A stretch of 39,315 bases of DNA from Candidatus Aenigmatarchaeota archaeon (lineage in GTDB: Archaea > Aenigmatarchaeota > Aenigmatarchaeia > GW2011-AR5 > JACRMX01), in assembly GCA_018304635.1 (NCBI GenBank), contig JAGVVW010000034.1, positions 1 through 39,315 of the forward strand, in the 5' to 3' direction. Numbering within the stretch: the first letter of the stretch is position 1; the number at the start of each line of letters is the position of its first letter. This document shows positions 2,020 to 39,315 of this stretch, one piece after another. Both the position numbers and the translations under genes were made by a program. The notes beneath the pieces were generated by a model. That model was not told the DNA's origin. It did not search any database and saw nothing but the letters and a program-made list of their open reading frames with translations.

Positions 2020-2889
2020 TTATTCCACAATTTTCACACTGTCAATTATGCCATCAGCATCATTGTCAATTCCTTCAACAATCGTATAATTTTTTCTGGA
2101 AATTTCATCAAATGCCTGAAAAAATGCCAGCACAGCTGCCCGTGTTCCTGTATATCCTTTTCCGGCAATAACCATGATTTCATGCTCTTCCGACAAAGGA
2201 TTTTTCTGTTTCAGGATAAAACCGATATTGTTTTCTTTGTATAACCTTTTTGTCTTTTTGGAATAAATGTAATTCCTCTCTGCAAACTTTACACAAAGAT
2301 CTTTGTTCAATAACTTTGTCACCCTGTTTACAACAGGACCACCGATAATTATCAAATTATTTTTTAGTTCTGATTTATGCAGATCTGTATCAAAAACAAC
2401 ATTAGGTTCTGATACGCTTAAAAATTTTCCAAGAAACAATGAAAAATTAGATGCATATAATGCATCTCTTGACCTTGCTTTTTCAGGTCCATGGGGATCT
2501 GAACTGCCGATAATTATTAATGAATTCAGTTTGCCGTTTTTTATAAAATCAGAAAAGAATTTATCCTCTGTTGGTATGTTTATAGATCTATCAAGTTTAT
2601 CTATCATTAAAACAAATCCGGAACTTGATGATTTATACACATTCGCAACTGTACCACCTAAATATTTTTTGGATTCTATTTCAATGAATCCCATTTTATC
2701 CAGCTGTCGTACATGATAATATATTTTCTGCTCATGCTCTCCGAATTTTTTAGCTATGTTCCTAGGATGATCTGGAGTAACGACCAGATGTCTTAAAATT
2801 CTAATAGCCAGCTTGCTCAATCCGATGTTTTTTACAGGCTTGATCGGAGCTGTAGCAAGACCCCTGGAAGTTTTTTCTACTGCATACAC
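2020..2889 (-). CDS. Winged-helix protein with S-layer-like C-terminal domain
   Basis: The open frame extends back to a TTG at 2916, but I prefer the GTG at 2889. It has a Shine-Dalgarno (GAGGTG, complement of 2897-2902) about 7 nt ahead, and a TATA box at 2922-2930 would start transcription near 2900, after the TTG. The product is then 289 aa. The first ~85 residues form an ArsR/MarR-like wHTH (SKLAIRILRHL, PRNIAKKFGEHEQKIYYHVRQLDKMGFIEI). The rest resembles the C-terminal domain of methanogen S-layer proteins: NLIIIGGPVVNRVTKLLN, then IMVIAGKGYTGTRAAVLAF and IVEGIDNDADGIID. No signal peptide, so it is cytosolic. It could be a regulator that reuses the S-layer fold as a sensor domain. It is divergent from the sugar nucleotide genes. 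Confidence 0.7.
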   Translation of the reverse strand: MYAVEKTSRGLATAPIKPVKNIGLSKLAIRILRHLVVTPDHPRNIAKKFGEHEQKIYYHVRQLDKMGFIEIESKKYLGGTVANVYKSSSSGFVLMIDKLDRSINIPTEDKFFSDFIKNGKLNSLIIIGSSDPHGPEKARSRDALYASNFSLFLGKFLSVSEPNVVFDTDLHKSELKNNLIIIGGPVVNRVTKLLNKDLCVKFAERNYIYSKKTKRLYKENNIGFILKQKNPLSEEHEIMVIAGKGYTGTRAAVLAFFQAFDEISRKNYTIVEGIDNDADGIIDSVKIVE

Positions 2890-17734: not shown

Positions 17735-17846
17735 TGCGACCGCCGGGATTCGAACCCGGGTCATGAGCTTGGAAGGCTCAGATCCTACCGATGTCCAACC
17801 GAGCTTACAGCTTCATTAAAAGAAAGGGTTACTAGACTACGATCGC
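17735..17846 (-). tRNA. tRNA-Gly(UCC) with a 41-nt D-loop intron
   Basis: The gene reads 17846 to 17735 and includes discriminator A73; no CCA is encoded. Acceptor GCGATCG pairs with CGGTCGC. The anticodon arm is TGAGC-CTTCCAA-GCTCA (anticodon UCC) and the T arm CCGGG-TTCGAAT-CCCGG. The D arm is split: GTCT-AG, an insert, then CGGTA-GGAT. The insert (17791-17831) has a bulge-helix-bulge type junction: exon GUCU pairs with intron GGAC, bulges AGU and AUC flank, and the inner helix is AACC/GGUU. Cutting after the second nucleotide of each bulge gives a normal 7-nt D-loop (AGCGGTA) and a 71-nt tRNA. The exon strand used is the 5' D-stem strand, so splicing must come before D-arm folding. Confidence 0.92.
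17791..17831 (-). other. tRNA-Gly D-loop intron
   Basis: 41 nt, non-canonical position (around nucleotide 16-18). Its 3' end GGTTGGAC mimics the exon segment GGTAGGAT, competing for the same D-stem strand. Junction type is HBh' with no clear outer helix. Confidence 0.8.
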
Positions 17847-18227: not shown

Positions 18228-18259
18228 GACGCATCTGACCAAAATTGTCAAGATGTGTC
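18228..18259 (+). ncRNA. Stable hairpin in the tRNA-Ser leader, possible small RNA
   Basis: GACGCATC (18228-18235) pairs with GATGTGTC (18252-18259) with one G-U pair. The stem continues through TGAC/GTCA with a single bulged A, leaving a 7-nt loop. An outer pairing GGAGA (18210-18214) with TCTCC (18275-18279) may close it further. No clear box C/D or H/ACA elements. It is either a processed leader or a separate small RNA cotranscribed with tRNA-Ser. Confidence 0.35.
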
Positions 18260-18308
18260 GGGTCGTTTCGGTTGTCTCCTATGTGCTGGGATGGCGGAGC
18301 TAGGTTAA

Positions 18309-18345
18309 AGCCCTTTTCTCTTACAAGAGAAAAAGGTGTGATTAA
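18309..18345 (+). other. tRNA-Ser intron 1 (D arm)
   Basis: 37 nt with an 11-bp internal hairpin (CCTTTTCTCTT / AAGAGAAAAAGG, one bulged A). TTAAA is repeated at both ends, so the cut site is uncertain by about 4 nt. A relaxed bulge-helix-bulge with AAA bulges on both sides and a weak GGUU/GAUU helix can be drawn. Confidence 0.75.
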
Positions 18346-18393
18346 ACGCGCCAGCTTGGAGAGCTGGTGCCCGCAAGGGCGCGCAGGTTCAAA

Positions 18394-18444
18394 ACAATCT
18401 TTTTTTTTTCAAAACATCGATGAAAAAGAAAAAGATAGGGAAAT
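18394..18444 (+). other. tRNA-Ser intron 2 (T loop, 59/60)
   Basis: 51 nt. Junction: T stem outer helix, 3' bulge AUU, helix UUC/GAA plus an A-G mismatch, 5' bulge AAA, then an inner helix that extends into a long U10/A-rich stem. Cutting after the second bulge base gives U54 to U60 in correct order. The T10 run (18400-18409) could look like an archaeal terminator but pairs inside the intron. Confidence 0.85.
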
Positions 18445-18510
18445 TCCTGCTCCCAGCGTTTGACTCTTTTTATTTTTTTACATTTTTAAAACAGGAGAAC
18501 AAATAATATC

Positions 18511-20606: not shown

Positions 20607-20975
20607 TCACTCTTCCTCCTCTTCTTCGCCAAGGAACCGGAAAACATTTTCAGCCTTGTTTATCAGACCCTCATCAGCCAGCTCTAACAATTCCTTGAGC
20701 GATTGCTCATAAGAAACATTAAACATTTTCATATACATTTGTGGTGTGATAGATTTTTTGTTTTTCATTTCCTTCAGGGAATCTATCTGCCTTTCATTCA
20801 GAAAGAACTTCATTAAGGAAGGCTCTACAGATGCAGTCAGCTCAAAGCTGACTTCTTCCACACGCCCGGTTGCTTTTATAAAGCCTTTCTTTTTCATTTT
20901 GGAAAACCTCTTAAATTTCTGTTTTCTGAAATGTTTTTCATATTTTGACTCACCACTATTTTTCTTTTTGGGCAA
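20607..20975 (-). CDS. Small basic wHTH protein, Fic-tail-like
   Basis: 122 aa with a TTG start (weak). The N-terminal 35 residues are very Lys/Arg-rich (PKKKNSGESKYEKHFRKQKF). The C-terminal half LNERQIDSLKEMKNKKSITPQMYMKMFNVSYEQSLKELLELADEGLI is a winged helix of the kind often appended to the C-terminus of Fic proteins. The protein ends in a run of Glu. No Fic core is in this gene; the Fic gene at 16705-17646 lacks such a tail. It may be a DNA-binding regulator. Confidence 0.6.
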   Translation of the reverse strand: MPKKKNSGESKYEKHFRKQKFKRFSKMKKKGFIKATGRVEEVSFELTASVEPSLMKFFLNERQIDSLKEMKNKKSITPQMYMKMFNVSYEQSLKELLELADEGLINKAENVFRFLGEEEEEE

Positions 20976-20999
20976 CTTACACTTTTTCTTTAACGACTT

Positions 21000-21018
21000 G
21001 ACGCATCAAAGATGCGTC
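21000..21018 (-). other. TTT-loop hairpin downstream of the giant gene
   Basis: On the minus strand AAACGAAAGA (complement of 21017-21026) runs into GACGCATC-TTT-GATGCGTC, a perfect 8-bp stem beginning 26 nt after the stop codon at 21044. Same frame as 4183-4209 with different but complementary stem bases. Could end or protect the transcript of the giant surface gene. Confidence 0.5.
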
Positions 21019-21043
21019 TTTCGTTTGAAAAGAAAAAAGGCAG

Positions 21044-24000
21044 TTAGTCACCTTTAAGCTCATCCAGTTCCATGAGAATCTCAAACCGCTGCTTATCATA
21101 TATGTACCTGCTTATCTGGCCATGTCTGTAGCGTAATTCCAGAACCTTTAATCTGGTTTTTAGCTCTCTTATTCTTTCAAGCCTTTTGTCTGACTTTTCA
21201 CGCCTTGGTAAAAGTACAATAAGCATTAATATCATAGCTGCTACAACTATTCCTGCCATTATCCATGAAATTTCAATAGGAGGTTTAGCAGCGATTTCTT
21301 TTTCTATTTTATAGGAATTCAGTAATTTGCGTAATTCATCTATCTTGGAATTCAGTGACTGAATGTTTGAATCCAGCTTATACATGCCTGCCTCAAACAA
21401 TGCATTTGTTGTTGTATACTCAGTCATTGCATTATCATGCAGGTACTCAGCCTGGCTGACATCCATAGTTTGCTTGTCAAAGAAATCAATTTGCTGCTTA
21501 ATTGAATCCAGTTCTAACTTTACATAATCAAGTTGCTGTTTCATTCTATCCACAGGATGTGGAACAAACAACACTGAATATTTCTTGATTTCATATCTGT
21601 CTGATTTAGCTATGTACATGAAGGTATAATTGCCATATGGCACATTGTATGGAATATTCAATAGCATATCATATGAATATTCCCCGTTCGGAAGCAGTTG
21701 TAATGGAGATGGTGATACTGTAAACCAGGACTCATTCAGGAATAAAATGGACAGTGATATGTTATTCAGCTTCTGGTTTCCTGTATTTTTGATTGTTGGC
21801 TTTATAATCATGGATTTTCCTTGTTCTAATTGAACAGCTTCTGGTATCAATAAAGACATGTTATATACAGCTGCTACAAATCCGCCGCCTCCGCCACCAC
21901 TGCCACCACTACTTCCGCCGCCTCCGCCAGCTTCATTTGTTGTTGGCCTTACAACAGGGAATGTACAGTAGCCGGTTGTTGAGTTTGTAGCATTATTGTA
22001 AGATGCAGAAGCTTTATAATAGTATATGCCACTGTCAGCTGTAATAGGTACTGCTAATGATTCCTCTAATTTTCGTGACTGACCTGGATAAATAGCCAGT
22101 GGAACAGAACCTTCTGCTACTCTGGTACCGAAAGGATTTTCAATCCACCACGTTGCCTGTATATCTGTATAATAATCTCCAAAATTAGAATAGTTAATTG
22201 TTGCAGTTGCAGAATTTCCAGCAGTTACAGTAAGCTGACTGCAACTGACTTTTACATCGTAAAGCAGCTGCCCTGGAACATTTACATTTGAAGATTCAGT
22301 ATCATAAGTTGTAGAGCCGTCTATATTTTGTAATGTAACTTCAACTATATGTAATCCCGCAATATCCGGCGTGAATTTCTCAGACATGTTGTAAATTACC
22401 TGGGATTTTGCAGCCACGCTCGTGACAATATCAGATACAGAATACTTCAATGTGTTGCTATATGTGAACCTAACCCTTATCTTATACACCCCTGTCTGGT
22501 TGCCGTCATTGTATATTTTCACAGAAACATTGGAAGGCTGGCTGACAGCCATTGTCAATGGTGATGTCCAGAAATCGATAATTTCACCTTTAACTTGCGT
22601 CATTAAATAATTATACAAGTCGCGTATAGTCACGTTCATGTCATGCAATGTACGATTTATATCGCTTACATTATGCCATATATCTCCCAGTGTAGAATCC
22701 ACGTCAAATGATATGGATGATGTCATTGTCCTGTATTTTGCAATTGCAAGATATTGCCCCTGTGCAGTTGGAGCGCTGAAGGTATAATAATAAATTCCAG
22801 AGCCATATTCAGACATCTGGGTATTATTTTTATACACACCCATGGACGGATCTATAATATCCAGTGTTATGTTTGCCCCTAATACAGGAGTTGTATAACC
22901 ATCCTGTAAATGTGCATAAATTGTTACAGGCTCACCCGGAGCAAACTGTGTTGTTGTCATTGATAATACAGGCACTAATCCTATATCAATTTTCTGGAAG
23001 CTTGCATTGGCTGTCAGCTGGATGCTGTTGTCAAGTGTTGACATATTCAGGAATACTGTCATAGTGCCGTTTGCACTCGGTGTATCAACACTTCTCACAT
23101 AAATTGTTTCTGTATTAGCAGGAGTATACACTGCTTCAGTAGTTGGTGTTGTGACTGAACTTCCATACGCTATCCAGTATTTTATGTTAACATCCTGACT
23201 ATAATCACCGCGATTGAAAAGAATTATATCAACAGGCAGGTCTTCATCAGTACCGTAATCAACAGGTATCTTTCTTGGCCGCACCCGCACATCATAGACA
23301 CCGCGGGTTATTCTGAAAACTTTTGCATAATGCTTTGAATTGTTGTTGTATGTAATATTGAACACAGCGATATGAACTCCTGACTCGATTGTTGAAGGCG
23401 ATGTCCAGTTGAACAGATAATCGCCGGATGATAATGCGCTGTAATTTGTCGTGTTGTATTCAGCATTATAAGTTGTATTCAAAACAGTCAATGACATATT
23501 TTGAGGAGATACTTTTCCGGTTAATCCGTTGACTGTTACAACCATCAGAATATTTGACTGCGGCACTGCTATATATGGCAAGTCAATATCAACAGTAAAA
23601 AAGTTATTATTTGTTTCATTCAGATAGCCAACATCATTAAGTATTCTATAGATCGTTGCATTAGCATCATCAATTACATTATCTATTGTTATTAAGCGAC
23701 CGCATACACTACTTGTAGCATGTGTATTTGTACAGTTCGCCAGCTCTTTTACAGCAACGGTTGTAGTGTAAATCAATGACAGGTTGTTGTCTATGTTATT
23801 TAATCTGGAATGCAGGGATGAATTTGCATTATTTACCTGCTGCTGCAATGTGCTTATTCCTGACTCAACAGAATCTGTATATCCTTCAATTGTAATCAGC
23901 CTTGAACAAATATCACTACCAGCAGGGCTTGCACAATTTAATTCATTTTCCAGTGAATCTGTATAGGTTTCTATCAGGTCAACATCTGTCTGTAAGTTGT

Positions 24001-24395
24001 CAAGCTTGGGTACAATTGTACTTGTGATGTTTGTCAGTATCAGCGAGACATTTGTCCAGACATTATTCAATGTAGTGTTAAGTACAGTCAATCGTACACA
24101 GACCGAAGACTGCGTTTGATTGACACATGAAAGCAGATTATGAACATTATTAATGTCTGTTCGTGCTTCACTGATGTTATTGTGTATTACAACGAGCTTG
24201 TCCCAGATTCTTGTCTGATTTATTAAAATATTTTGCGTATCTGTATAAATACTATCAACCTTACTGTGAAGATATGCAAGCTGCGCACTCAAGTTAGTAA
24301 CGTAAATGTCATTGTAGAGCATTCTCGTCTGTCCATTGTGCGTAACATTGGTGATTGCAGTGTGGATGCCCAGTGATTCACCAACTGGAACAGAC
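21044..24395 (-). CDS. Giant surface protein, C-terminal segment with membrane anchor
   Basis: About 1,116 aa; the ATG at 24403 is an artefact of the join at 24395/24396, so the segment is 5'-partial. Order (residue numbers from 24403): end of an Ig-like domain (1-40), coiled-coil stalk with Cys loops (45-265), several Ig/CARDB-like domains (270-820), GGGGGSSGGSGGGGGG linker (826-841), an NPCBM/NEW3-like domain (855-940), helical coiled coil (950-1040), one membrane helix (about 1045-1065), then a cytoplasmic SHOCT-like piece (LELRYRHGQISRYIYDKQRFEIL). This is the anchored end of a very large extracellular protein. Many N-x-S/T sequons. Stop TAA at 21044, followed by the hairpin. Confidence 0.8.
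24297..24395. repeat. 99-bp exact repeat B, copy 1
   Basis: Identical to 25099-25197 and differing immediately outside on both sides. Ends flush at the frame break at 24395/24396. Confidence 0.9.
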
Positions 24396-25197
24396 AACAT
24401 CAATTACTGCAGGTGCATATGTTTCAGCAAACCAGCCATTGCTAATTGAAGTTGTAGTTGCATTTATTGAATTGACAGTTGTGTTGATGTCCAGCAATCG
24501 CGCACAAATATTTGATTCAGTCTGGTTTCTGCACGACAAGTAATCATCGACTTGTGAAAGGTTTACAAGTATAGCATTGAGGCCTTTGTCAACTGTATCC
24601 AGTCTCGCTTGAACAGACGTGTTCATGCTGTTTATCATGCCTTGTGCAAGTGTCAAGTTTCCTGAAATTGAAATTGCACTGCTGTTGATCTGCATTAGTC
24701 TCGCGCAGACACTTGATTCAGTCTGGTTTGAGCAGTCAAGTAGTGCGTGAACATCGCTAATATTCGCACGCAAACTAGGTATTTCCTTGTCAATAATGTG
24801 ACCGAGCTTTGGTGCAATCGTGAGCGTAATGTTTGTCCAGATGTTGCTGACATTTGTCCAGACATTGTTTAGTGTAGTATTCAACACAAGCAACCGTGCA
24901 CAGACACTGGATTCAGTTTGATTTATGCAGGACAACATATTTTGCATATTGTCAATGTCGCTGCGTGCCTGTGTGATGTTATCGTGAATAACAGTTAACT
25001 TGTCAAATATCCTCGTTTGGTTTGTCAGGACATTTGAAATGTTGCCTGACAACAGGTCAAGTTTAGTTTGAATTAATGTCAGCTGTGCTGAAAGATTTGT
25101 AACGTAAATGTCATTGTAGAGCATTCTCGTCTGTCCATTGTGCGTAACATTGGTGATTGCAGTGTGGATGCCCAGTGATTCACCAACTGGAACAGAC
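24378..25197 (-). CDS. Giant surface protein, short coiled-coil/Ig segment (broken both ends)
   Basis: Reading starts at the join 25197/25198 in the frame of VPVGESLGIHTAIT (end of an Ig-like domain), then NQTRIFDKL, three Cys loops (CINQTESSVC, CSNQTESSVC, CRNQTESNIC) and the start of a new Ig domain (GWFAETYAPAVID). At 24396 it runs into the next segment out of frame and stops as VCSSW. The middle of that Ig domain (about 59 residues in intact copies) is missing. One module of the tandem array seen upstream, not an independent gene. Confidence 0.6.
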
Positions 25198-27700
25198 GCT
25201 ATTAATAGTGTTGTTAATAACCAATAATCTTGCACAAATATTTGAACCAGTCTGATTTGCACACGACAACATATCATGCAAATCTGTTGTATTTGAAACC
25301 ACAGACCCTATACTTACGTTCAGGCTATCAAGTTTTGAATGCACTGAAGCATTCATGCTGTTTATCATGCCTTGTGCAAGTGTTAAGTTTCCTGAAATTG
25401 AAATTGCACTACTGTTGATCTGCATTAGTCTCGCGCAGACACTTGATTCAGTCTGGTTTGAGCAGTCAAGTAGTGCGTGAACATCAGTCAAGTTGCTTCG
25501 CAAACTAGGTATTTCCTTGTCAATAATGTGACCGAGCTTTGGTGCAATCGTGCCAGTAACGTTCGTCCAGATATTTGAAACATTTGTCCAGACATTGTTT
25601 AGTGTAGTATTCATTACGAGCAAACGAGCACATATGCTCGAACCTGTCTGATTTGCACATGAGAGCATATCCTGCATATTATTTATGTCTGTACGTGACT
25701 GCGAAATATTATTATGGATTAAATTCAGTTTATCAAATATGCGGGTCTGGTTAACCAGAATACTATTTGTATCATTTGCAACCACATCTATACGCAACCT
25801 GAGATAATCCAGACGCTGTGCATAATCAGTAACATATGTGGAAGTATACATGTAAACAGTGTTCCCATTTTCAACAACTTCTGCCTGTGCAATATGTATG
25901 CCTACATTTTCAGTTGAAGATATTGACCAGTTATAGAAGTAAACGCCGGTCGACGGGTTATTGTTCATATAAGTTTCTGAAACATCAACTGTATCATCAA
26001 CCGTATCTATAATTGTTATGTTTGGATTTGTGTCAGGAACTTCCATTGGACCCAGTACAGAACGCATTGTTAATGTTATCCGTGTAAGATTTCCCCTGTC
26101 CACAAGCGGCGGCATATTCAGGTCAAGTATAAATCCTTTGGAAATGCTGTCACTCGTAGAGTTTATTGCATTCACTGTGATATTAATTATTCTCAATCTT
26201 TCACACACATTGCTATTTGTCTGGTTTCTACATGAAAGATAGTCATCGACCTCTGAAAGATTTGCAAGTATGGCATTGAGTCCTTTGTCAACTGTATCCA
26301 GTCTCGTTTGCACAGACGTATTCATGCTGTTTATCATGCCTTGTGCAAGTGTCAAGTTTCCTGAAATTGAAATTGCACTGCTGTTGATTTGCATCAGTCT
26401 TGCGCAGACACTTGACTCTGTTTGATTGGCACAGGACAGCAGATTGTGGATATTAGCAAGCTCTGACTCAACTGTATCTGTCTGTGTTATGGTTGTATCT
26501 AATTTTGGGACAATCGTGCCAGTGATGTTTGTCCAGATGTTTGAGACATTTGTCCAGACATTGTTTAATGTAGTATTCATTACCAATATCCGTGCACACA
26601 TGCTTGACCCGGTCTGGTTAACACAGGATAATAAATTGTGTACGTTATTTATATCAGTTCTTGCCTGACTTAAGTTGTCATGTATCAGGTTGAGCTTGTC
26701 AAATATTCTTGTCTGATTCGTTAATATACTCTGGGTGTCATTATGTATCGCATTTACCTGAATCTGAATTGCATTCAGCATTTCATCATATCGTGTTACA
26801 TAAATGTTTTTGTACATAAAAACAGTGTTGCTATTTTTAATGATTTTTGCTTGTATAGTATGCACTCCTACATTTTCATTCACTGAAATCGACCAGTTGT
26901 AGAAGTACACGCCAGATGACGGGTTGTTATTGAAATACGTTTCAGATACATCTATTGACCCGTCTACTCTGTCTATAATAGTTATGTTAGGCGTTGTATC
27001 AGGCACAACCATTGAGCCAAGAACAGATCGTATTGTAGTGTAAACAGTTGCAGTATATCCACGATCAATAATAGACGGAGCATCTATTTCTATAATGAAA
27101 CCATTGGAAATAGAATTCACAGTTGCATTGATATCATTGGCAGTATTGTTAATCATTTGCAATCTTGCACACACTGATGACTGCGTTTGATTTACACAGG
27201 ATAGTAAGTTGTGCACGTTTGAGATGTTCGCCTGAATTGAAAACAGGGCAGTATCCACTAAGCTGAAACGTGTCTGCACACTTGCATTCATGCTATTTAT
27301 CATGCCTTGTACAAGTGTTAAGTTTCCTGAAATTGAAATCGCAGAGCTGTTGATCTGCATTAGTCTCGCGCAGACACTTGATTCAGTCTGGTTTGAGCAG
27401 TCCAGTAGTGAGTGGATATCAGTCAAGTTGCTTCGCAGGCTTGGGATTTCCTTGTCAATAATGTGGCCAAGTTTCGGTGCAATTGTACCTGTGATGTTTG
27501 TCCATATCAAATTCATTGTTGCTGTTATGTTTGTCAGGTTGTTAAGTGTATTGTTTAGTCGATGGCATATGCTCTGTGGATTGTCCTGCCAGTAATACAG
27601 CGAGCAATCAGTCATGTTCAGCAAAATCAATGTATAATTATGTATATCTGTTACATTGTTCTGAATATCTCCAAGCCTGTTCCAGATTCTCGTCTGGTTT
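24430..27700 (-). repeat. Tandem coiled-coil/Ig modules, about 967-nt period
   Basis: The landmark TTCATGCT(G/A)TTTATCATGCC (plus-strand reading) starts at 24622, 25352, 26321 and 27287. Two intervals are 969 and 966 nt (323 and 322 codons); the third is 730 nt and holds the join at 25197. Each module encodes NQTRIFDKL, three Cys loops and one Ig-like domain. Stretches of over 100 bp around the landmark are nearly identical between copies. Confidence 0.85.
25099..25197. repeat. 99-bp exact repeat B, copy 2
   Basis: Second copy, ending flush at the frame break at 25197/25198. Confidence 0.9.
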
Positions 27701-30700
27701 GTCAGGATGTCATTGGTATTATTTAATATCAATGACACGTTTCCCTGTATTCCGTTGACTGTACTATTGATATTTGAAATTGTATTTGCCCACGGAGCAA
27801 CATGAAATGAATCAGCAGCAAAACCACGTGTCAGGCCACTGGTGAAGTTCGCTTCTTTTGTACAGTTAAAATCTGAAAGATAGACACCCTCTGTTGTTGG
27901 CGTCATATAATCATAATAGTACAGCCCGTTGCTTGGTGAAAGATATGACATTCCTCCGTGATCTATAACAATTGTATTGCTGGGATTGAAGATTGTTATA
28001 TTACATGTAGCTGTATTATACGGATAACCCAGTGAATCCTTAACCTGAACAGCCTGCCGTGCTGTTTCAAAGCTCTTGTATTCTGTTCCGCCGATTCTGG
28101 TTACAGTCAGACCGCCATGAGTTACAGCAAGCCATCCTGCTGCATAATTAGTTGGATCATTTGAACGGCTATAGTTTGAAAATGTACTCAACATGGATCC
28201 TGTTATTCTCGCTCCATACCAGTCTGTTACATTGCACCATGGATAATATCCCGGACCGTTGGCAGAACCACTTGCAGCCACGCTATATAGATAACAAATC
28301 TCATCATCAATTGTACCAAAAGTCGTAGTTATGTTTTCATAGCACATATATGTTTTTGTATATCCTGTAGTATCAGCATCTAAATAACAACCCACTGTTA
28401 AATTATCTCCGTCTTCATCAGTTGCATTCCACACTAACCTGTAATTGCTATCGCCAATATCATTGAATCCGTCAGGATCAATTATTGTTATATTCGGCAG
28501 CCTGTTAGCTATCTGAAACTCCTGCAAAGTGCCTGTAATAATATTTCCCAGTGTATCATTGGCATAGTATCGCCAGTATATGCGTTCCTGATTGCTGAAA
28601 TTTCCTGGCGTCAGTGTGAAATAATAAACACCATGCTCTTTTGAATCTGAGTTGCTTGCTGTATCAGTAGAATTCTGCCACAAGCCTGTTGATGCATTTG
28701 TTCCAAACCACACTCTGTCAATTTTTGCATATGGATCATCAACAGTTATATTCAAGAACACACTATTGTTGTTGAAATTCGTCTGTGGTGCACGCACTTC
28801 AGCTGTCAGGTTTGGAGAATCATTATCAACAGCAAATGTTACATTTACTTCATCGCTGTTGCCAGCACTGTCATTTGCTTTTACTCGCAAACGATAGTAG
28901 CCTGATTTATATTGCAGTGCACTTACAACATCATCCCACGAATTATATGTACCATTTGCCAGAACTTTATTATTCGCAGCACCAGGAAACTGTTCACGAA
29001 CAGTATTTGAAATGCGTAGGCCTTCTATCGTAGCATTTATTACATTTGCATCAGTTCCATTTTCACCTAATATTAAGTTTGAGCTAATTGTTATTGCACC
29101 AACATCAGTTTCATTTATGAATGCTCCGTCAACATACAGTTTTATTTTTCCCGAACTAACCCATGTTGCAGCAAGGTGATGCCAATCATCACTTGACGAG
29201 CTTTGATCGTCTTGTTTTTGTTTTTTCCAGTCAACATAAGCTTTAGCAACAGCATTGGAAACATTAAAGTATAAATAATTATCACTGCCTTTATACAGCT
29301 CCATGTTTTTGGCAGGTGAATCCCGAATTATAGAACGACGTGATGTATCGCCATATTGTTGGCGAATTTCATCAGCAGACAATGAGCGATTCCATATTGC
29401 GACTTCGTCAATTGTGCCGTTGAAATTTTTGCCGTCACTGAAATTTCTCATGCCTATATAAACATCGTGTGTTGATTCATATTGTATATTTCGGAAATTA
29501 CTATCATATCCATTTGCAGTGAAAATTGGCGTTGTACTTATTCCGTTTATGTAAATTTTTGCATCAGAAGAATCGTAATTTATGCTATTGTATGTAATTG
29601 CAACATAAATCCATCTGTTTCCATATGTATTAGGTATTGTCCACGAAGGATATTGTTCTGCGCTTTTGTTCATGACAGAAAATGAGATAAAAGTTGAATT
29701 CATATATAACATATAGCTTTCATATGAATCAAGGGCAATAGGCTTTGTAATAATTACTTGCATTGGGGTATTCATTCCATAAGGTTCTACCCATGCTGTA
29801 ATCGTAATATTTTTAGGCTCAAGTCCTGCTGAACGTGGAATTCTAATACTTTGATTATTTTTCCCACCAAATGAACAGGCAGAACCATACTTTCCGCTGA
29901 TATTGATTGAGCAATCTACTCCATTTTTCCCAGTTCCATGATTTCCCAGCCCACTCGAATCCTGCGTTGAGTTATCCATGTGCCAAAGTCCCACAAGCCC
30001 TGTCTGGCCACCCGGACGAACTTGTTGTGCAACATCAAATTCAGGCTTGAGCCATAGTTCTATAGTTCCATCTGCTGCTTCAATATTCCCTCCAGCTGGA
30101 TAAGTTATTGAATCACTTTCATTTAACAGGATTCCATTTGTTCCCCATTGCCCTGCAACAAAACTGGCATTTGTAATTGACCAGTTAGTCATATTACCGA
30201 TACCTGTTCCTTCACTACAATTATATGTTGAATTAAAATTGCAGAGCATAAGCGTGTAATCGTCTTTTGAAGTTTCCAGATGCGGATATTGTTCCTCGTC
30301 AGCCCATGCATACACATTACTGGTTTGCACAAGCATCAGACTATCAAAATAAGCAGTGCCATTTACATTATTAAGCATAGCATAAATTGTAAACGAAGTG
30401 CTTGAGCCTGTGTTAAATGATACATTATATCGTGTCCAGTTTTTCGTTCCATTTACGTTCAAGTCTCGATTCGTCACTCCATCGCTGATGCGCAATGTTG
30501 CATTGCCGCCGCCAGTTATATTTATAACACTGGTTACTTTCATATATCCGCTAAATGTATATTGCGTGTTAGTATTCAATGTCACATGAGTTGACAGATT
30601 AGATGTGCTGTTAGAAACTGTATGGCTTATTCTTACACCACGTGTACCATAATAATAGTCATGATTATCTACCTGTATAGGATTAGTTTCACCGTTAGCT

Positions 30701-33700
30701 GGAAATTCTGTCCAGTTGCTAATGTTTGTACTGCTGAAATTAAACTCAAAGTCACTGTTATTTATCAGATTTTGCGGCTCCCATTGATAAAGCCAATATC
30801 GTGTAACATCTTCGTTCAATTCTGTCAGACTTGTATTAATTCTTATTGTACCATTCATAACTTGCATTTCTATTGGTGTTTGCACTGTTATGTTTGGCAG
30901 TGTTGTATCCACACTGAAAGACCAGTTATTTATTGCCCATGAACTGTTGCTTACTGTATCATTGCATAAAATATTCCATGAGTGTCCTCCATCGTACATA
31001 ACTGAAACAATACCATTCGTAGCATTAGCAACAGTCTTTGTTGCATTCAAAGCCCACGAACCAGTTGAATTAGTATAAACCTGGCACGAGTCAGCGTCGT
31101 CATCTGAAACAATGAATGTAAAGTTTATACTGCTTGTCGCATTCCATGAATTATCTGCAGGCATATACAATGTTACGCTAGGCGGTATTGAACTGTCAAA
31201 CAAGCTGTAATTTGAAAATCCTGTAACATTGAACACATAAGTATTGCTGGAGTATGAAATATTTTTGCAAACCGTGGAAGGGCACTTCTCCCACAATCCA
31301 GTTGCAGTTGTATTTCTTTTCATGAATGGTAGTGCATAAGTGATATTATTTAGTGTAATTTTCGCACCAGCTTTCTCAAGTATCGGCTCAGCTACAGTAT
31401 CAGCACCTGCAAAATTATTTTGAATCACCAGCTTTGAAAAGTCCGCAGACTGGTTCACAGATGAATTGTAGAAGCTCACAGACCCGTTGGAATTGAACTT
31501 GGTCATTAAGGCACCAGGTGAGAGGGTTGAGTTCGTAATTGAAGGGACGGTGAAAGAAATGGAAATGTTACCATTTTGAGTAATGCCTGTGTTATTAACA
31601 ATACCTGTTATTGAAAGTGTTGGTGCATAAATATTGATCTGGGGAATTGAAGAAGGATTAGAACCAAAGCTTGTTATATTTCCTGAAATTGATAACGAAC
31701 TAGTTGAATTTATTGTAATGTTCCCGCCGATACTATTGTTACGAGCTAATAATCTACCTATAGTATTCACAACGCCTCTTATATCTATTACAGATGCTGT
31801 TAAATTTATTATGCCTCCCTTTCCCTGATAACCACCATCACCATATATATATGATGGTCCTTGTCCGCCATTTGATAGCAGGCTTCCTGTTATATTTATC
31901 GTACTTGCATTGAATACTATTCTATTGCCATCACCACCACTCCATTTCACACTTCCTGTACCTGCTTGTCCTGTACTTTTCACATTTCCAGATACTAAAA
32001 TTGTCGGAGCAGTGAAATTTATAATACCTCCATCACCTGAATATAAATAATAATCAGTATTACCTGGCAAAGCACCAATTGTTTCAATTGTTCCTGTAAT
32101 ATTTATGAGATTTGCCGCAATAAATGTTATATTTCCACCTTTTCCACATTTTGTTCCAGAAGTACAAGACAAACCTTGTGTGGATACACTTGATGTTACT
32201 GTTATATTGTCAGCATTTATTACAAGATTTAATTCTTTCGATCCTAATACAAGAGAGTTAAGACTAACTGTATTCAAAGATAATGACTGTGATTTTTCTG
32301 TACTAATATTAGCAGAAGTATTTAATGTATCTGTTATATTTAAATAAGTAACATTTAATATAGCAAATCTTGACATGAATTGCACTATACCCAGACTTAG
32401 ATCTCTTTCTATTGTAAGATTTGCCGATGTTATGTTCAGAAAACCAGCTATATTCTGTATAGAGCCATTGCTTATATTCAGCATTCCTGTAACATTCAAG
32501 TAAAGTGATGAACTACTCAGCAATATTCTTGCATCACTTATTAAAGTAAGGCTTGTAAAGTTGTACTGGTTTGTGATTTTGCACCATGTGTTGTTAATTA
32601 TACATGATCCTCCAGCTGGGCACTGGCTGTTCCTGTTGCAGTTGAATGAATTTGGTATCCATTGCCCATGGCTGAAATTTGCCTTTGAAATCAGGACATT
32701 ACTTTCGTTTTCATAATTTAGGTAGATATTACCGAGATAGCCATTATTATCCCCACCATAAGATCCACGTGAAGCATTGATAACTCCTGTTATATCTATG
32801 ATGGATCCTGTAATATTTACTGTACCACCACTACCACGAGTATAATCAGCATTTCCAGTAAATGAACCACCACCATTTGCTGAAACTACACCTGTAATGT
32901 TCACTGTTGTTGCATTTAAGATTATTGTACCACCGGCACCACCATTAGCTTTTGTAGCATCAGATTGAGTTGTTGGAGGTTGACCTCCAGTAGCAGTTAC
33001 ATTATTGGTTATGAGAATTGTCTGGGCAGAAATATTGACAATACCTCCGTTGCCACCAGTAGAACCAGTCGATGTTGGAGTTCCACCTGTTGAATCTGTT
33101 CTTCCAGTAATATTTATGAGGTTCATCGCAATAAGTGTTATATTCCCTCCTATTTGACACGTCCCACTGCTACATGATGCTCCTGTACTTTGTACAGTCC
33201 CCCCATTCATCACCGTAACATTCCCAGTCGCATTTATCGTAAACGAGCCACCAACTGTGTTCTGTAGAATACCACTACTCTGCACTGTTAATTCTTCATA
33301 GCAGTTCGTTGAGCCACTGGACACATTAACAGTTGAATTAACAATTCCTGTAATAGTTGTATTTGCCGTGTCCATAGTTGGTGTAAACGTAGCTGTGCAA
33401 GTCTCCGAAGTTCCGAAAGAATTTATAGCTATTGTACCATTGACTGCACTAGTACAGTCATCCCCGCATCGTGCAAAAACAGATCCTGTTATGGATAAAA
33501 ATGTTGAATTTATTTGCAAAGTTCCACCATTGCCATCACTGTTGACACTTTCTGAATCAGTCATTCCACCATTGACACTAATAATACCAGCTATGGACAA
33601 ATTCGTAGCATTTAATACAATTAAAGAACCAGCTCTGCCATTAGGATTACTATCAAAACTAATACCGGAAGTAGAGTCAAGTATTCCTGTTATATTTATC

Positions 33701-35383
33701 GTAGTTGCATAGGCACTAATAACGCCGCCTAAAGTTCCTGATACATTTTGTCCATTTGAATTTATGCCGTCTAATGATAGGTTTCCCTGAACAAACACGG
33801 TGTTTGCATACATAGATAGATTTCCAGTTTTAACACCACAAGTTTCACAGGTTGAATTTCCACCCTGCATTAATGAACCACTGTAAAATGTTATATTATC
33901 TGTAGCATTCATGACAAGAACCGGCTCATTGGTTTCATAAAATTCATAGATGTTGCTGTGAACATTGCCTATAACATCTATATTTCCGAATGATGTAATT
34001 GTCACATCTCGCAAAACATTGCGTTCTGTTCCTGAAACAGAAACATTTGTCGCATTTACTCGAATATAGCCTGTGCCATTGTGTATTATAGAGCCTGATG
34101 AAACATTGAGCATGGAGATGACAGTTATATTTAATGCATTGTTGTGCATGAAAACATGACTTCTGTTAACTAATGTAAGGTTATTGTATGTGCGGGAACC
34201 GTTCAACTCGCATCGTATGTTATTTAGTACAGCATCTGTATTATCAGAAATGCCGCAGGTTTTTGACGGCATTATCCAGTATGCTGGATCTGTTGCTGTG
34301 GTTATAGTTATTGTTGTATAATTCAGATATATATTTCCATCAGCTTCTCGTTCAGGTTTGATTGCTTTTTTAGCTGTTACACTGCCTTGGATAACTAATG
34401 TAGGTGCTGTTATGTTAATTATGCCGCCCCGTCCTGATGCATAATTCGTATATAAATCAGAATGTTGTGGGAACCCGTAAAGTGCATCGTCTTTCGCATC
34501 TGCTGTTATATTTCCAGTTGAATATAAAGATGTTGCATTAATAACAACATTTCCACCATTTCCAGGTTCTGAATGTGCTCCTCCATTTCCTATGCTACCG
34601 CCAACAGCTGTTATTAATCCAGTGTTATTAATAGTTGCAGCATAAACTGTTAGATTTCCACCGTTTGAAGAATCAGCATCACTATCAGTATCACCCATAC
34701 CATTTACTGATATTGTACCATTATTTGTTATGTTGACAGCATAAATTGTTATAACTGGAGAAAACACTGAACTCTGATTTAATGACACAAATCCTATACT
34801 CCCCCCATTATTCACCGTCACATTCCCAGTCGCATTAATCGTAAAGCTACCGCCAGTTATGTTTTGAATAATACCAGCACTTTGCACAACTAAATTGGAA
34901 ATATTGAAAGTATATCCGTCTGTTAAGTTTGCTGTATGGTTTACATAGCAGACATTATTAATAATTGTTGTACAGATACTCATCTCAGTTATGCCCACTG
35001 TCTGCGATGCAGTTGCAATATTGCCTGCTGTATCATTTGCTGCAACAACATAATTATATGCCCTGCCAGCTGGCAGATTAGTAATATTTATCCACGTATT
35101 TGATGCGTCGCCATGAGCTCGTATTTCATCACTCGTCAGCGTCCTGTTCCACACCCCAACTTCGTCAATCGTTCCATTCGTTGCATTGTGCTGCCATGCA
35201 TTGTTTCCGATATAAGCCTGCTCTGTAAAGTTGTTGGGCAGGCTTATGGCACTCACAGAAGTCTGCGAAACACCATCAACGTACAAGTTCGCTCCACTCG
35301 TGCTCCACGTTCCAGCTATGTGATGCCAATCATTTGCACTCCAGCTCGTTGTTGAATAACCAAGCGTCTCATTGCCCACATGG
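25180..35383 (-). CDS. Giant surface protein, main segment (LamG, beta-helix, CBM, stalk)
   Basis: About 3,400 aa, open at its 5' end to the join at 35383/35384 (the GTG at 35379 is only the first start-like codon). In order: end of a LamG domain (35383-35120), a very long beta-helix-like part of short G/N/T-rich strands (GGNLTVYAATINN-type repeats, about 35000-31550), Ig-like domains (31200-30850), a CBM4/9-like domain (NSDFEFNFSS...YFDSLMLV, about 30760-30310), LamG domains (GLVGLWHMDNSTQDSSG...TIDEVAIWNRSL, about 30010-29000), Ig-like domains to 27850, then coiled-coil/Ig modules to the join at 25198. It ends out of frame (VCSSW stop). Extracellular, densely glycosylable; likely an adhesin or carbohydrate-binding fibre. 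Confidence 0.75.
35285..35383. repeat. 99-bp exact repeat A, copy 1
   Basis: Identical to the last 99 bases of the window (39217-39315); the base just before each copy differs (C versus T). Ends flush at the frame break at 35383/35384. Confidence 0.9.
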
Positions 35384-38300
35384 TTATGGCATTACCGCCA
35401 GCTAATGTTGCACCTATCACTGTATTTATTGTTGAAGCAGTTAGTGCACTGCCACTATTTACATTCAATCTATTAATTCCATCTATCCACATCACTTGTT
35501 GTCCAGATATAGCATAAGCAGATATATGATGCCATATGCTATCATTTATAGCAATATTTGAAGTGCCTTCTGCTCCACCGTTTATTAGAATTTGCAATCT
35601 TCCGTTAGCCACTAAATACAGAGCAAATCTTCCACTCGAACCACCAGAACCTACCTGATTGAATACGTATGAACTATTACTTGTTGTTTTTACCCACAAT
35701 GAAACTCCTATTCCTGATGTATTTGTCAAATTTGATGATATAGTTATTCTGTCATTCACTCCGTCAAAACTATATGCTGTCCCAAATTTAGCATCAGAAG
35801 TAGAAGTAGGCCCATTGATTGTTCCATCATGTCCAAAACCACTTGAATCAAGAGCATTTCCATCCAGATGCCATAGCCCCACCAGCCCCCGTGACGTATC
35901 TGGTATTGCATGCGGTGATGAGAAATAAATATATTCTGCATTATCATTACCAGCCACGTTTGGTTTCAGCCACATCTCCAGTGAACCGGAGTTATTTAAT
36001 ATTCCAGTCGCACCAGTGCCCATTGAAATATTTATAATATCTGCGTCTGTTGTTCCAAAGGAACATGCTGTCCCGAACTTACCGCTGACAGAGGTTGAAC
36101 AGTTTGCCTTGCCAAGACCTGAAACATTTCCTGACGTTGTTGCATGGCCAAGTCCCGAGCTGTCTTGTGTCGAGTTATCTAAATGCCATAGTCCCACCAA
36201 GCCAGAAGTATTATACCACGTTTCATTTACTGGCTCAGGCCTTAATGTGCGATTGTATTCACCATTCCATTGCAGCCATAATTTGTCTAAAGAAAGTTCG
36301 TTTATAGAAACATTTATCACTGTATATGTTCTGTTAATATACGAATTATTTGTATCTGTAGGCGCGATAAATGTAATTGTTGGCGCAGTTGCATCAACAT
36401 AAATCGCACCCTGAAACGAAGCTGTATTGTTCAAGGTGTCATTTGAATATATCGTATAATTAACTTCGCCTGTTGGAAATGAAGCATTTATCAGCCCGGT
36501 AGCTGACCAGATATTATTTGCTGCATCAACCAGAGACATAAACCACGTAGCAACTATCGTCGCAACCCCATTAACCATGTGCCAGAACTCAATCCAGACT
36601 TTATCTATGGGTGCATTTGGCTGCGGCACGATCGTAACATTTATTGTCAAATTTTTACCCATTGCAACTTCTGTTGCACCTGTTATCTGGATGCCTGACT
36701 GGTTATACTCAACAGCATTGCTAATAGTTGGCGCAAAAGTATTCACAGTGAAGTTATACACTTCAGACCACGGCGAATAATACTCTCTGTCAGCATATGT
36801 TTCATTGCTAACATCCAATGCACGGACCTTCCAGAAGTAGCGACCATTAGCTAATTGCGATGGCACAGTAAATGTTGTGCTGGAGATATTGCTATACGGA
36901 GTTCGTGCAATGCTGGAAATCCGCAGTTCATCAATCGAACCATTGAAAAAATTTGTATTATTTGCCCCGACTTTGATATTCGTTCCTGTTTGTGAACCAA
37001 GTGTTCTCGTGCCTCTCGTTTCCTCAATTCCATTAAGATATAAAATCACTTGTGTATTATCATAAGTCACAGCAGCAGAATACCATGTTCCTGTTGAAAG
37101 TGTCGTCGCTCCGTTCAGTGCACTGCCGCCAATGTATGTAAATAATTTATTATTTGTCGTGCCTTCGTTTCCATTACCTATACCTATGTGCGTGCGTTCC
37201 TGTGATAGTATTGGTTCAATATTTCCTGTATCTCCTGACCACTTAAACCACAGCTCTTCAGTAAACTTGTCTGTAGAAGCACGGATCATATCATTTTGCA
37301 ATGTATAATTTACCCATGCCCCGGAACCATTCAAAGAAATTGCATTTCCAAACCTGCCTTTTGTAAATGCAGGATTGCCCATCAGCGTCCCGCCATTATC
37401 CACCACTAATGTGGCAGACTCAAAGTGTTCTGTGAAAACAGTATAATCATCATCTTCGTTCCAGGCATCGCTCGAATCCCGAGGCTGTGTGAAATTATTA
37501 ATAGCTAGCCTTGAAACTTCCGGCGATGAAAAATTAGCATCATTGTCTATTAGCAATTCGTAATACTGACGACCGCGATAGTACTGGTCCCGTATTTCGT
37601 ATTCACTTAGAGAGCGATTCCAGATAGCGACTTCGTCAATCGTCCCATTCGTTGCATTATGCTGCCATGCATTGTTCCCTATGTATGCGGAATCAGTAAA
37701 GTTATTAGGCAATGAAATCGAAGTTTTCGTAGTTTGCAGCGAACCATCAACATAGAGATTTGCCCCACTCGTCGACCACGTTCCAGTTATGTGATGCCAA
37801 TCATTCGCACTCCACGAACTTGTAGCGTAACCCAGTGTTTCATTGCCGATGTGGAAGTTCAGCGTGTTTGTAGTATTCTTGTACAGCGATAACCCAAGTG
37901 CCTGTTCTTTAATTTCCTGTGCAGACAATGAGCGATTCCATATTGCAACTTCGTCTATGGTGCCGACAAATCTTCCGCTTGGATCTGCAACTGATATTCG
38001 AAATGGCTGGTCTGAATTCGATAATATTGTTCCATATGTTTGGGTTCCTAATGATGCACTATTTATATATGTTGTAATGGTTGAACCAGAACGAACCATT
38101 ACTATGTAATACCAAACGCCGGTTTTAAACGTATAACTCCAAGTTGCAGCTGGTCCACTTGTCCTCCATAAATAAATTTGTTTTGTTCCTGCTGGGGCAA
38201 TCATAATAAACCATGCCCCACCTTCGGTATGAGGCCCCCTTCCCACTGTTTGCTGATATTCTGGTAATCCATTAAATTTCACCCACTGCGAAAAAGTAAA

Positions 38301-39315
38301 ATTTGTAAAATTATCAAGTTGAGGTGAAGTTCCCATACTTATTACATCATTCACCCCATCAAAACTGCACGCTGTCCCGAACTTGCCGCTGACAGTTGTG
38401 GAACAGTTCGTTCCATTAACAGCAATTCCGTGATTCCCCAGCCCACTCGAATCCTGCGTTGAGTTATCTAAATGCCACAAGCCAACAAGCCCTCTTGAAG
38501 CATCTGGTATTGCATGCGGCGATGAGAAATAAATATATTCGTTATTATCACTACCAGCCACATTCGGTTTCAGCCACATTTCCAGTGAACCGGAATTATT
38601 CAATAGTGAACTACCTATTGAAATGTTTATAATGTCTGCATCAGTTGTTCCAAAGGAACATGCTGTTCCGAATTTTCCATTAACAGCGGTGGAACAGTTA
38701 GCTTTGCCAAGTCCTGATACATTGCCTGACGTTGTTACATGACCTAATCCTGAACTGTCTGCAGTTGAGTTATCCAAATGCCATAATCCGACAAGCCCCG
38801 TAGTATTTGCCCACGTTTCATTAATTGCGCCGAATGCATTCCATTGCAGCGTTGTCAGGTTATTTGCAAGATAAGTATTATTTATTGGGATTTGTAGCGT
38901 AACGTTTTGTGGCGGCCTGTTCCTTATAGGAACCTGATAATTCTGCTGGGTGAAATTAATGCTCTGCAAGACCGGTGTCATGTTAGTATCAAGTGTATCA
39001 AACAGCACGCGATATTGCATATATCTTCCAGCACCAGCTGTATAATGCTGATAAATTTCAGCAGAGCTAAGTGTTCTGTTATAAATCATTAATTCATCTA
39101 TTGTCCCATTCGTCGCATTGTGCTGCCATGCATTGTTTCCAATATAAGTCTGCTCTGTAAAATTATTGGGCAGACTTATGGCACTCACAGAAGTTTGCGA
39201 AGCACCATCAACGTATAAGTTCGCTCCACTCGTGCTCCACGTTCCAGCTATGTGATGCCAATCATTTGCACTCCAGCTCGTTGTTGAATAACCAAGCGTC
39301 TCATTGCCCACATGG
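35316..39315 (-). CDS. Giant surface protein, N-proximal LamG segment (partial)
   Basis: About 1,332 codons, open through the window end, so 5'-partial; the last ~20 residues (after about 35384) are read out of frame across a join. It holds at least five LamG/concanavalin-A-like domains, recognisable by TGLVGLWHLDNST..DSSGLG, GKFGTACSFDGVND, FSQWVKF and GTIDEVAIWNRSLS, plus Ig/FN3-like spacers (ANGRYFWKVRALDVSNETY; INVTIVPQPNAPIDKVWIEF). LamG domains usually bind glycans or Ca2+. No signal peptide is visible because the N-terminus lies beyond the window. It is probably the same giant polypeptide as the next segments. Confidence 0.7.
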   Translation of the reverse strand, partial: HVGNETLGYSTTSWSANDWHHIAGTWSTSGANLYVDGASQTSVSAISLPNNFTEQTYIGNNAWQHNATNGTIDELMIYNRTLSSAEIYQHYTAGAGRYMQYRVLFDTLDTNMTPVLQSINFTQQNYQVPIRNRPPQNVTLQIPINNTYLANNLTTLQWNAFGAINETWANTTGLVGLWHLDNSTADSSGLGHVTTSGNVSGLGKANCSTAVNGKFGTACSFGTTDADIINISIGSSLLNNSGSLEMWLKPNVAGSDNNEYIYFSSPHAIPDASRGLVGLWHLDNSTQDSSGLGNHGIAVNGTNCSTTVSGKFGTACSFDGVNDVISMGTSPQLDNFTNFTFSQWVKFNGLPEYQQTVGRGPHTEGGAWFIMIAPAGTKQIYLWRTSGPAATWSYTFKTGVWYYIVMVRSGSTITTYINSASLGTQTYGTILSNSDQPFRISVADPSGRFVGTIDEVAIWNRSLSAQEIKEQALGLSLYKNTTNTLNFHIGNETLGYATSSWSANDWHHITGTWSTSGANLYVDGSLQTTKTSISLPNNFTDSAYIGNNAWQHNATNGTIDEVAIWNRSLSEYEIRDQYYRGRQYYELLIDNDANFSSPEVSRLAINNFTQPRDSSDAWNEDDDYTVFTEHFESATLVVDNGGTLMGNPAFTKGRFGNAISLNGSGAWVNYTLQNDMIRASTDKFTEELWFKWSGDTGNIEPILSQERTHIGIGNGNEGTTNNKLFTYIGGSALNGATTLSTGTWYSAAVTYDNTQVILYLNGIEETRGTRTLGSQTGTNIKVGANNTNFFNGSIDELRISSIARTPYSNISSTTFTVPSQLANGRYFWKVRALDVSNETYADREYYSPWSEVYNFTVNTFAPTISNAVEYNQSGIQITGATEVAMGKNLTINVTIVPQPNAPIDKVWIEFWHMVNGVATIVATWFMSLVDAANNIWSATGLINASFPTGEVNYTIYSNDTLNNTASFQGAIYVDATAPTITFIAPTDTNNSYINRTYTVINVSINELSLDKLWLQWNGEYNRTLRPEPVNETWYNTSGLVGLWHLDNSTQDSSGLGHATTSGNVSGLGKANCSTSVSGKFGTACSFGTTDADIINISMGTGATGILNNSGSLEMWLKPNVAGNDNAEYIYFSSPHAIPDTSRGLVGLWHLDGNALDSSGFGHDGTINGPTSTSDAKFGTAYSFDGVNDRITISSNLTNTSGIGVSLWVKTTSNSSYVFNQVGSGGSSGRFALYLVANGRLQILINGGAEGTSNIAINDSIWHHISAYAISGQQVMWIDGINRLNVNSGSALTASTINTVIGATLAGGNAITMWAMRRLVIQQRAGVQMIGIT
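39217..39315. repeat. 99-bp exact repeat A, copy 2, at the window end
   Basis: The window stops exactly where the repeat stops, as expected if this is also a contig end. Confidence 0.9.

Follow-up and report, generated by a model that had tools for sequence, protein, structure and literature searches.

Large-scale transposition of tRNA introns in Thermoproteales was reportedly described by Fujishima in 2010. Two later papers cite this work (PMC4090602; PMC3293823), and the first places the tRNA introns of Thermoproteales at sites 20/21, 56/57 and 59/60, with up to three per gene, and speaks of their large-scale transposition. In the Asgard archaea Atabeyarchaeia and Freyarchaeia, 92-95% of tRNA genes are interrupted, more than half of them with several introns, at non-canonical sites (PMC11291895). 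On the side of the processing enzyme, the EndA of N. equitans is listed in a review as a broad-specificity enzyme (PMC6379350), and lysine-bearing loops near the active site have been linked to broad specificity in Crenarchaea and in ARMAN-2 (PMC6379350; PMC12397907). EndA-spliced introns, tRNA genes with multiple introns and intron transposition are already known in other archaea. Here we describe a tRNA-Ser(GGA) gene with two introns in a stretch of 39,315 nucleotides (the window), which corresponds to contig C25 of a 1.08-Mb draft MAG that comprises 52 contigs and is 88% complete. By sequence, the host is placed as an aenigmatarchaeon (DPANN) and not as a member of Thermoproteales, because its splicing endonuclease is 52-72% identical to the homologues from Candidatus Aenigmatarchaeota MAGs. 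Below, the genome under study is called G000, its family-mate G001, and the relatives G003, G006, G008, G012 and G019. The window also contains two giant repetitive ORFs (25180-35379 and 35316-39311, minus strand; 3399 and 1331 aa), which at their called starts have nearly the same stretch, MGNETLGYSTTSWSANDWHHIAGTWSTSGANLYVDG, as compared in translation only.

We are confident that this is a functional tRNA-Ser(GGA) gene, with two introns that are likely spliced by EndA and that belong to a genome-wide population of small introns, many of which are related. The gene was delimited with an intron-aware tRNA parser that we wrote, which fits four stems and a class I or class II variable arm and accepts introns anywhere at a fixed cost. 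It was used with a lower cost for introns at 37/38, and some anticodons hinge on an assumed 37/38 site. Removal of both introns converts the 174-nt gene into a standard mature tRNA of 86 nt (G73), in which the parser finds every stem and conserved base intact: the acceptor (18285-18291/18451-18457), the discriminator G at 18458, the GGA anticodon and a class II variable arm. The features are listed in Table 1.

Table 1. Coordinates, in the window, of the tRNA genes, their parts and the intergenic copy discussed in the text.
Feature	Position	Strand	Basis or remark
tRNA-Gly(UCC) gene with D-loop intron	17735..17846	-	Rfam partial match; parse score 50.2
Gly(UCC) D-loop intron, 39 nt, begins AACCCTTTCTTTT as in the intron family	17792..17830	-	register approximate
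tRNA-Ser(GGA) gene, two introns, discriminator included	18285..18458	+	intron-aware parse, score 53.6
Exon 1: acceptor 5' strand, D arm to D loop	18285..18309	+	end uncertain by 5 nt
D-loop intron, 37 nt, hairpin CCTTTTCTCTT/AAGAGAAAAAGG	18310..18346	+	one of six equivalent registers; TTAAA-flanked
Exon 2: D stem 3' strand, GGA anticodon arm, long variable arm, T arm to base 59	18347..18393	+	
T-loop intron at 59/60, 51 nt, T10 in hairpin arm; relaxed BHB	18394..18444	+	parser; family-level BHB
Exon 3: T60, T stem 3' strand, acceptor 3' strand, G73	18445..18458	+	
Intergenic intron-core copy	20961..21043	-	93% over 92 nt to the tRNA-Gln(CUG) D-loop intron

A previous sequence-only reading of this DNA had proposed two non-canonical introns in the gene and a host outside Thermoproteales. 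The host assignment was correct, and the introns are supported by the parse score of 53.6, compared with at most 38.6 in 24 control trials in which a real T arm was planted in shuffled sequence. The coordinates proposed for the T-loop intron (18394-18444, 51 nt) proved exact. For the D-loop intron the proposed length of 37 nt holds, but the exact site is ambiguous: with TTAAA repeated at both ends, the six registers from 18305-18341 to 18310-18346 all yield the identical RNA, so the sequence does not fix the site within 19/20 to 22/23. The T10 run, pointed out as an oddity, is real and belongs to the pyrimidine arm of the T-loop intron's hairpin. Such an arm is common to many introns of this genome, with C residues breaking it in most of them. 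The run could serve as an archaeal transcription terminator, which would speak against a functional gene. Neither ARAGORN nor Rfam cmscan detected the Ser(GGA) gene, which is no surprise, since both of its interruptions lie outside the anticodon loop. A second intact Ser(GGA), part of the finding named beforehand as counting against the two-intron gene, was not found: when the spliced tRNA served as a blastn query on this 88%-complete genome, it was covered only at its own locus, in intron-split pieces, and the remaining hits were partial matches to other Ser tRNAs.

EndA cuts after the second base of the bulge in a bulge-helix-bulge (BHB) motif, and the T-loop splice site is therefore set at 59/60. 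A BHB at 59/60 was found in 21 of 35 T-loop introns from this genome and its relatives, as against a mean of 0.6 and a maximum of 4 in shuffled introns. It consists of a central helix of 3-4 bp, formed by T54-T55-C56-R57 and the YGAA at the end of the intron, together with an inner helix and bulges that are mostly of 3 nt. The central helix covaries with base 57, A57 occurring with TGAA and G57 with CGAA. The finder used for this count did not return the T-loop intron of Ser(GGA), and a simple strict-BHB finder run on the gene's own two introns gave no sensible solution. By inspection, the T-loop junction forms a relaxed BHB, with a UUC/GAA central helix adjoined by an A.G opposition, AAA and AUU bulges, and an inner helix that has one A.A mismatch. 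The BHB that had been proposed for this junction is thus supported in a relaxed form, and strongly at the level of the family, but not as a motif recovered by the finder. At the D-loop junction, no convincing strict BHB was found within the six ambiguous positions of the register. As predicted from sequence, the Ser(GGA) transcript would bear both introns, EndA would most likely cut both junctions at BHB or relaxed BHB sites, and the exons would be joined, presumably by RtcB, to give the 86-nt tRNA.

Which endonuclease could perform these cuts? Attention had already been drawn to the enzyme type, and a single EndA of the alpha type was detected: the genome has one PF01974 match, a protein of 186 aa with N and C domains (Pfam). 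Its closest structures in the PDB are those of M. jannaschii (1a79) and the N. equitans catalytic subunit (3iey_A). Immediately before the catalytic His it has a Lys/Arg-rich insertion, LKRGPKSAKEHTKW. This loop is almost invariant among the aligned aenigmatarchaeal sequences and is close to the N. equitans PKKGKRSEREHSKW, and six of its residues are missing in M. jannaschii. The enzyme may have a broad specificity. It is possible that a further, beta subunit exists that is too divergent for Pfam.

The Rfam tRNA model gives 8 genes over the cut-off in this genome, against 37 with the intron-aware parser, and ARAGORN and Rfam used by themselves overlook nearly all of these genes; in the other 19 genomes examined in the order the Rfam counts run from 5 to 33, with 5 in the family-mate. 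Our census combined T-arm and intron-end patterns with the parser, which gave 35 genes, and the later addition of Ser(CGA) and of a Leu-type gene brought it to 37, a lower bound obtained from the stretches around matches. Among these 37 genes 36 (97%) are interrupted, by 65 introns in all and up to three per gene, the single intact gene being Val(CAC). The use of intron patterns in the search did not create this share, because intact genes are those that the covariance model detects best. In the first 35 genes, 60 introns were counted: 22 in the T arm, 19 in the D arm, 17 at 37/38 and 2 elsewhere. They are 11-196 nt long, occur in pairs in 16 of these genes and in threes in 5, and make the longest genes 396 nt. 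Five genes of the census score 41-44, nearer to the control maximum of 38.6 (24 shuffles).

Several tRNA loci of the genome are unusual in themselves. Gln(UUG) (C28:19611-19880) has an apparent intron nested inside an intron, and in the T loop of Thr(CGU) (C12:373-131) about 2.5 intron units are arrayed in tandem. A class II tRNA at C11:7449-7616 (plus strand) combines a Ser-type acceptor (GCTGGGA/TCCCAGC, G73) with the Asp anticodon GUC, in an anticodon arm that reads CGTAA TTGTCAA TTACG; a normal Asp(GUC) is found at C47:12542-12390, and Ser tRNAs with GGA, UGA, CGA and GCU are all in the genome. The C11 tRNA, if real, might place Ser at Asp codons; alternatively, it may be a pseudogene. Another class II tRNA (C51, about 2065-2202, minus strand) has a Leu-type body and the anticodon loop CTTATGA, read as UAU (Ile), an anticodon that also occurs in a class I tRNA at C30:2432-2037. 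Finally, the 3' portion of a class II tRNA that has the anticodon TAA and a T-loop intron lies on C36 (about 580-760), and no matching 5' acceptor half was found within 570 nt upstream; the tRNA is possibly split, or an assembly error may have broken the gene.

The Ser(GGA) orthologs bear on the question of whether the locus is still a gene. A T-loop intron is present in Ser(GGA) of G012, G008, G003 and G019, the Ser(GGA) of G006 is intronless, and the D-loop intron is absent from all orthologs parsed. A candidate from the family-mate (C54:23650-23721) was set aside, as it parses as Ser(UGA). As judged from these few genomes, the T-loop intron may date from early in the history of the order, and the D-loop intron may be specific to the lineage. 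One could still suppose that the locus is a decayed, non-functional gene and that the true one lies in the missing 12% of the genome, given that the assembly is only 88% complete and that the D-loop junction has no strict BHB. We regard this as very improbable: the spliced form keeps all stems and conserved bases, the T-loop intron recurs in Ser(GGA) of four relatives, and the same reasoning would demand the decay of 36 of the 37 tRNA genes.

That the two introns belong to a larger population is indicated by comparison of the introns with one another. Many of them begin with RCCCTTTY and end with GGTGTTGGGA. When G000 introns from different genes were paired, 81 of 1302 pairs scored above the best of 1500 dinucleotide shuffles; most pairs are not significantly similar, the median score being 13.5 compared with 10.5 for shuffled introns. 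The relative G012 shows the Thermoproteales-type pattern, in which non-orthologous tRNA genes of a single genome carry near-identical introns: between Gly(UCC) and Asp(GUC) the T-loop introns agree at all of 91 nt, and among Gly(CCC), Gln(CUG) and Arg(CCU) they reach 96-98% identity. In G000 itself the similarity between tRNA genes is lower, up to about 84%. Related introns also occur at different tRNA sites, as in the D loop of Gln(CUG) and the T loop of Ala(GGC) (82% over 89 nt). The Rfam intron models had no match in the window, whose only match at the gathering cut-off is a tRNA, and a group I or group II identity was rejected on this ground; homing-endonuclease introns were rejected for the tRNA introns, which at 11-196 nt are too short to encode such an enzyme.

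Relatives of the introns were also found outside tRNA genes, where copies of the intron core were sought by blast and motif (a covariance model was dropped, since MAFFT misregistered the hairpin arms). The intergenic copy in the window begins right behind the stop codon of the ORF at 21044-24403, a second lies at C45:14837-14922 (91%), and further copies adjoin start codons; these intergenic copies are without the usual 3' end of the introns. The rRNA genes contain three copies: the 16S gene has one, at GGATTAGATA/CCC, and the 23S gene has the other two. The 16S gene (C9:22401-24733) is 2333 nt long, compared with a model of 1478 positions, and the 23S gene (C35:36640-42058) is 5418 nt, compared with 2987 positions. 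Alignment of the 16S gene with those of relatives, some of which reach about 3.5 kb, gave 11 inserts of at least 18 nt, putative introns, several at sites that relatives also use. As a separate observation, the octamer GACGCATC, in many cases within the 8-bp hairpin GACGCATC..GATGCGTC, recurs in introns and in intergenic DNA, and in the window it is found at 18228-18262, 21000-21018 and 35102-35109 (4 matches, compared with 0.47 expected).

Could the likeness of the introns be convergence, produced by the ends that EndA requires and by look-alike AT-rich hairpins, without common descent? BHB requirements do account for part of the intron ends, and the low median score of the intron pairs agrees with it. 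It is contradicted for the related introns by the 91 identical nt of the two G012 introns, by an intergenic copy that is 93% identical to a tRNA intron over 92 nt, and by the 81 pairs that beat every shuffle. As a general account we therefore give convergence hardly any credence, while for short or unmatched introns it is possible.

If the introns are of common descent, how did they spread? Many of them share a core in which a pyrimidine tract (Y) pairs with a purine tract (R1), followed by a short palindromic turn, with the variants CGTTAACG, CCCTTGGG and CCTGTACGG, and by a second purine tract (R2). The second tract tends to mirror the first, repeating it reversed and uncomplemented, and changes with it. 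The mean mirror match is 0.888, compared with 0.800 (sd 0.0105) when R2 is permuted among introns; the observed mean was reached in 0 of 5000 permutations, which overstate the independence of the cases because the introns share ancestry. The alternative that R2 is a direct copy of R1 was tested and fits less well: perfect mirrors number 20 of 42 and perfect direct copies 3 of 42, although direct matching also exceeds its own permutations (0.807 against 0.770). The mirror result persists with one intron per distinct R1 and in asymmetric R1 only; the feature was noticed and then tested in the same introns. For an intramolecular purine.purine-pyrimidine triplex to form, mirror-image purine tracts are needed.

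It is tempting to speculate that the introns represent a mobile element that is dispersed in Aenigmatarchaeota and whose conserved core of pyrimidine hairpin, palindromic turn and mirror purine tract serves its movement or folding, and that the tRNA and rRNA introns derive from a non-coding, transposon-like element. The mirror tract would then, again tentatively, meet the requirement of a three-stranded purine.purine-pyrimidine structure, be it of RNA or of DNA. A different account, which we consider rather unlikely, is that the introns are spliced but were spread by gene conversion between tRNA genes through the short sequences shared by their T and D arms, and not by a self-moving element. 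It agrees with the near-identical introns of G012, which occupy the same tRNA site between a common GGTTCRA and TCC, but related introns are also found at different tRNA sites, and in rRNA genes and intergenic DNA that have no tRNA homology. We return to the reading of one spliced intron population: small, non-coding and in many cases related introns would have spread to nearly all tRNA genes (D loop, 37/38 and T loop at 59/60), and the same population into the 16S and 23S rRNA genes and some intergenic places, a direction and mechanism that we infer from these comparisons.

With nearly all of the tRNA genes found in a reduced DPANN genome interrupted, translation would hinge on a single small endonuclease. 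Standard annotation recovers 8 of at least 37 tRNA genes here, so such genomes would appear incomplete or tRNA-poor. Near-identical introns across tRNA genes, with relatives in rRNA genes and intergenic DNA, would make intron movement in archaea directly testable, and with an EndA loop common to the group, the proposed co-evolution of enzyme loops and intron diversity can be put to the test. In the literature that was covered, which included few subscription papers and is therefore weak evidence of novelty, no report of such introns in Aenigmatarchaeota was found, and two genome papers on Aenigmatarchaeota and DPANN (PMC8407114; PMC8407392) are without any word starting with "intron".

Among described enzymes, those of ARMAN-2 (Micrarchaeota) and N. 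equitans are broad-specificity EndAs that likewise come from DPANN archaea, and the ARMAN-2 loop near the active site is lysine-bearing (PMC12397907; PMC6379350). In contrast to the 390-aa ARMAN-2 enzyme, only a 186-aa alpha-type EndA is found here, and its loop resembles instead that of the N. equitans catalytic subunit. Compared with the CSL and ASL loops of broad EndAs, it is a Lys/Arg-rich insertion before the catalytic His, and its equivalence to them is putative. The Asgard Atabeyarchaeia and Freyarchaeia are alike in the rate of interruption but represent another lineage, and the accessible sections of PMC11291895 report no shared intron family. The 16S rRNA introns of Thermoproteales resemble those described here in that some are short and hairpin-forming, but many of them encode homing endonucleases (PMC4496867), whereas the tRNA introns here, at 11-196 nt, encode none. 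The tRNA introns of Thermoproteales are also a close match, with sites at 20/21, 56/57, 59/60 and 37/38, up to three introns per gene, similarity across tRNAs, and introns in rRNA as well. The present case differs from them in that the host belongs to another phylum, that 97% of the genes found are interrupted, and that one intron group, with a mirror-symmetric purine core, is common to tRNA genes, rRNA genes and intergenic DNA.
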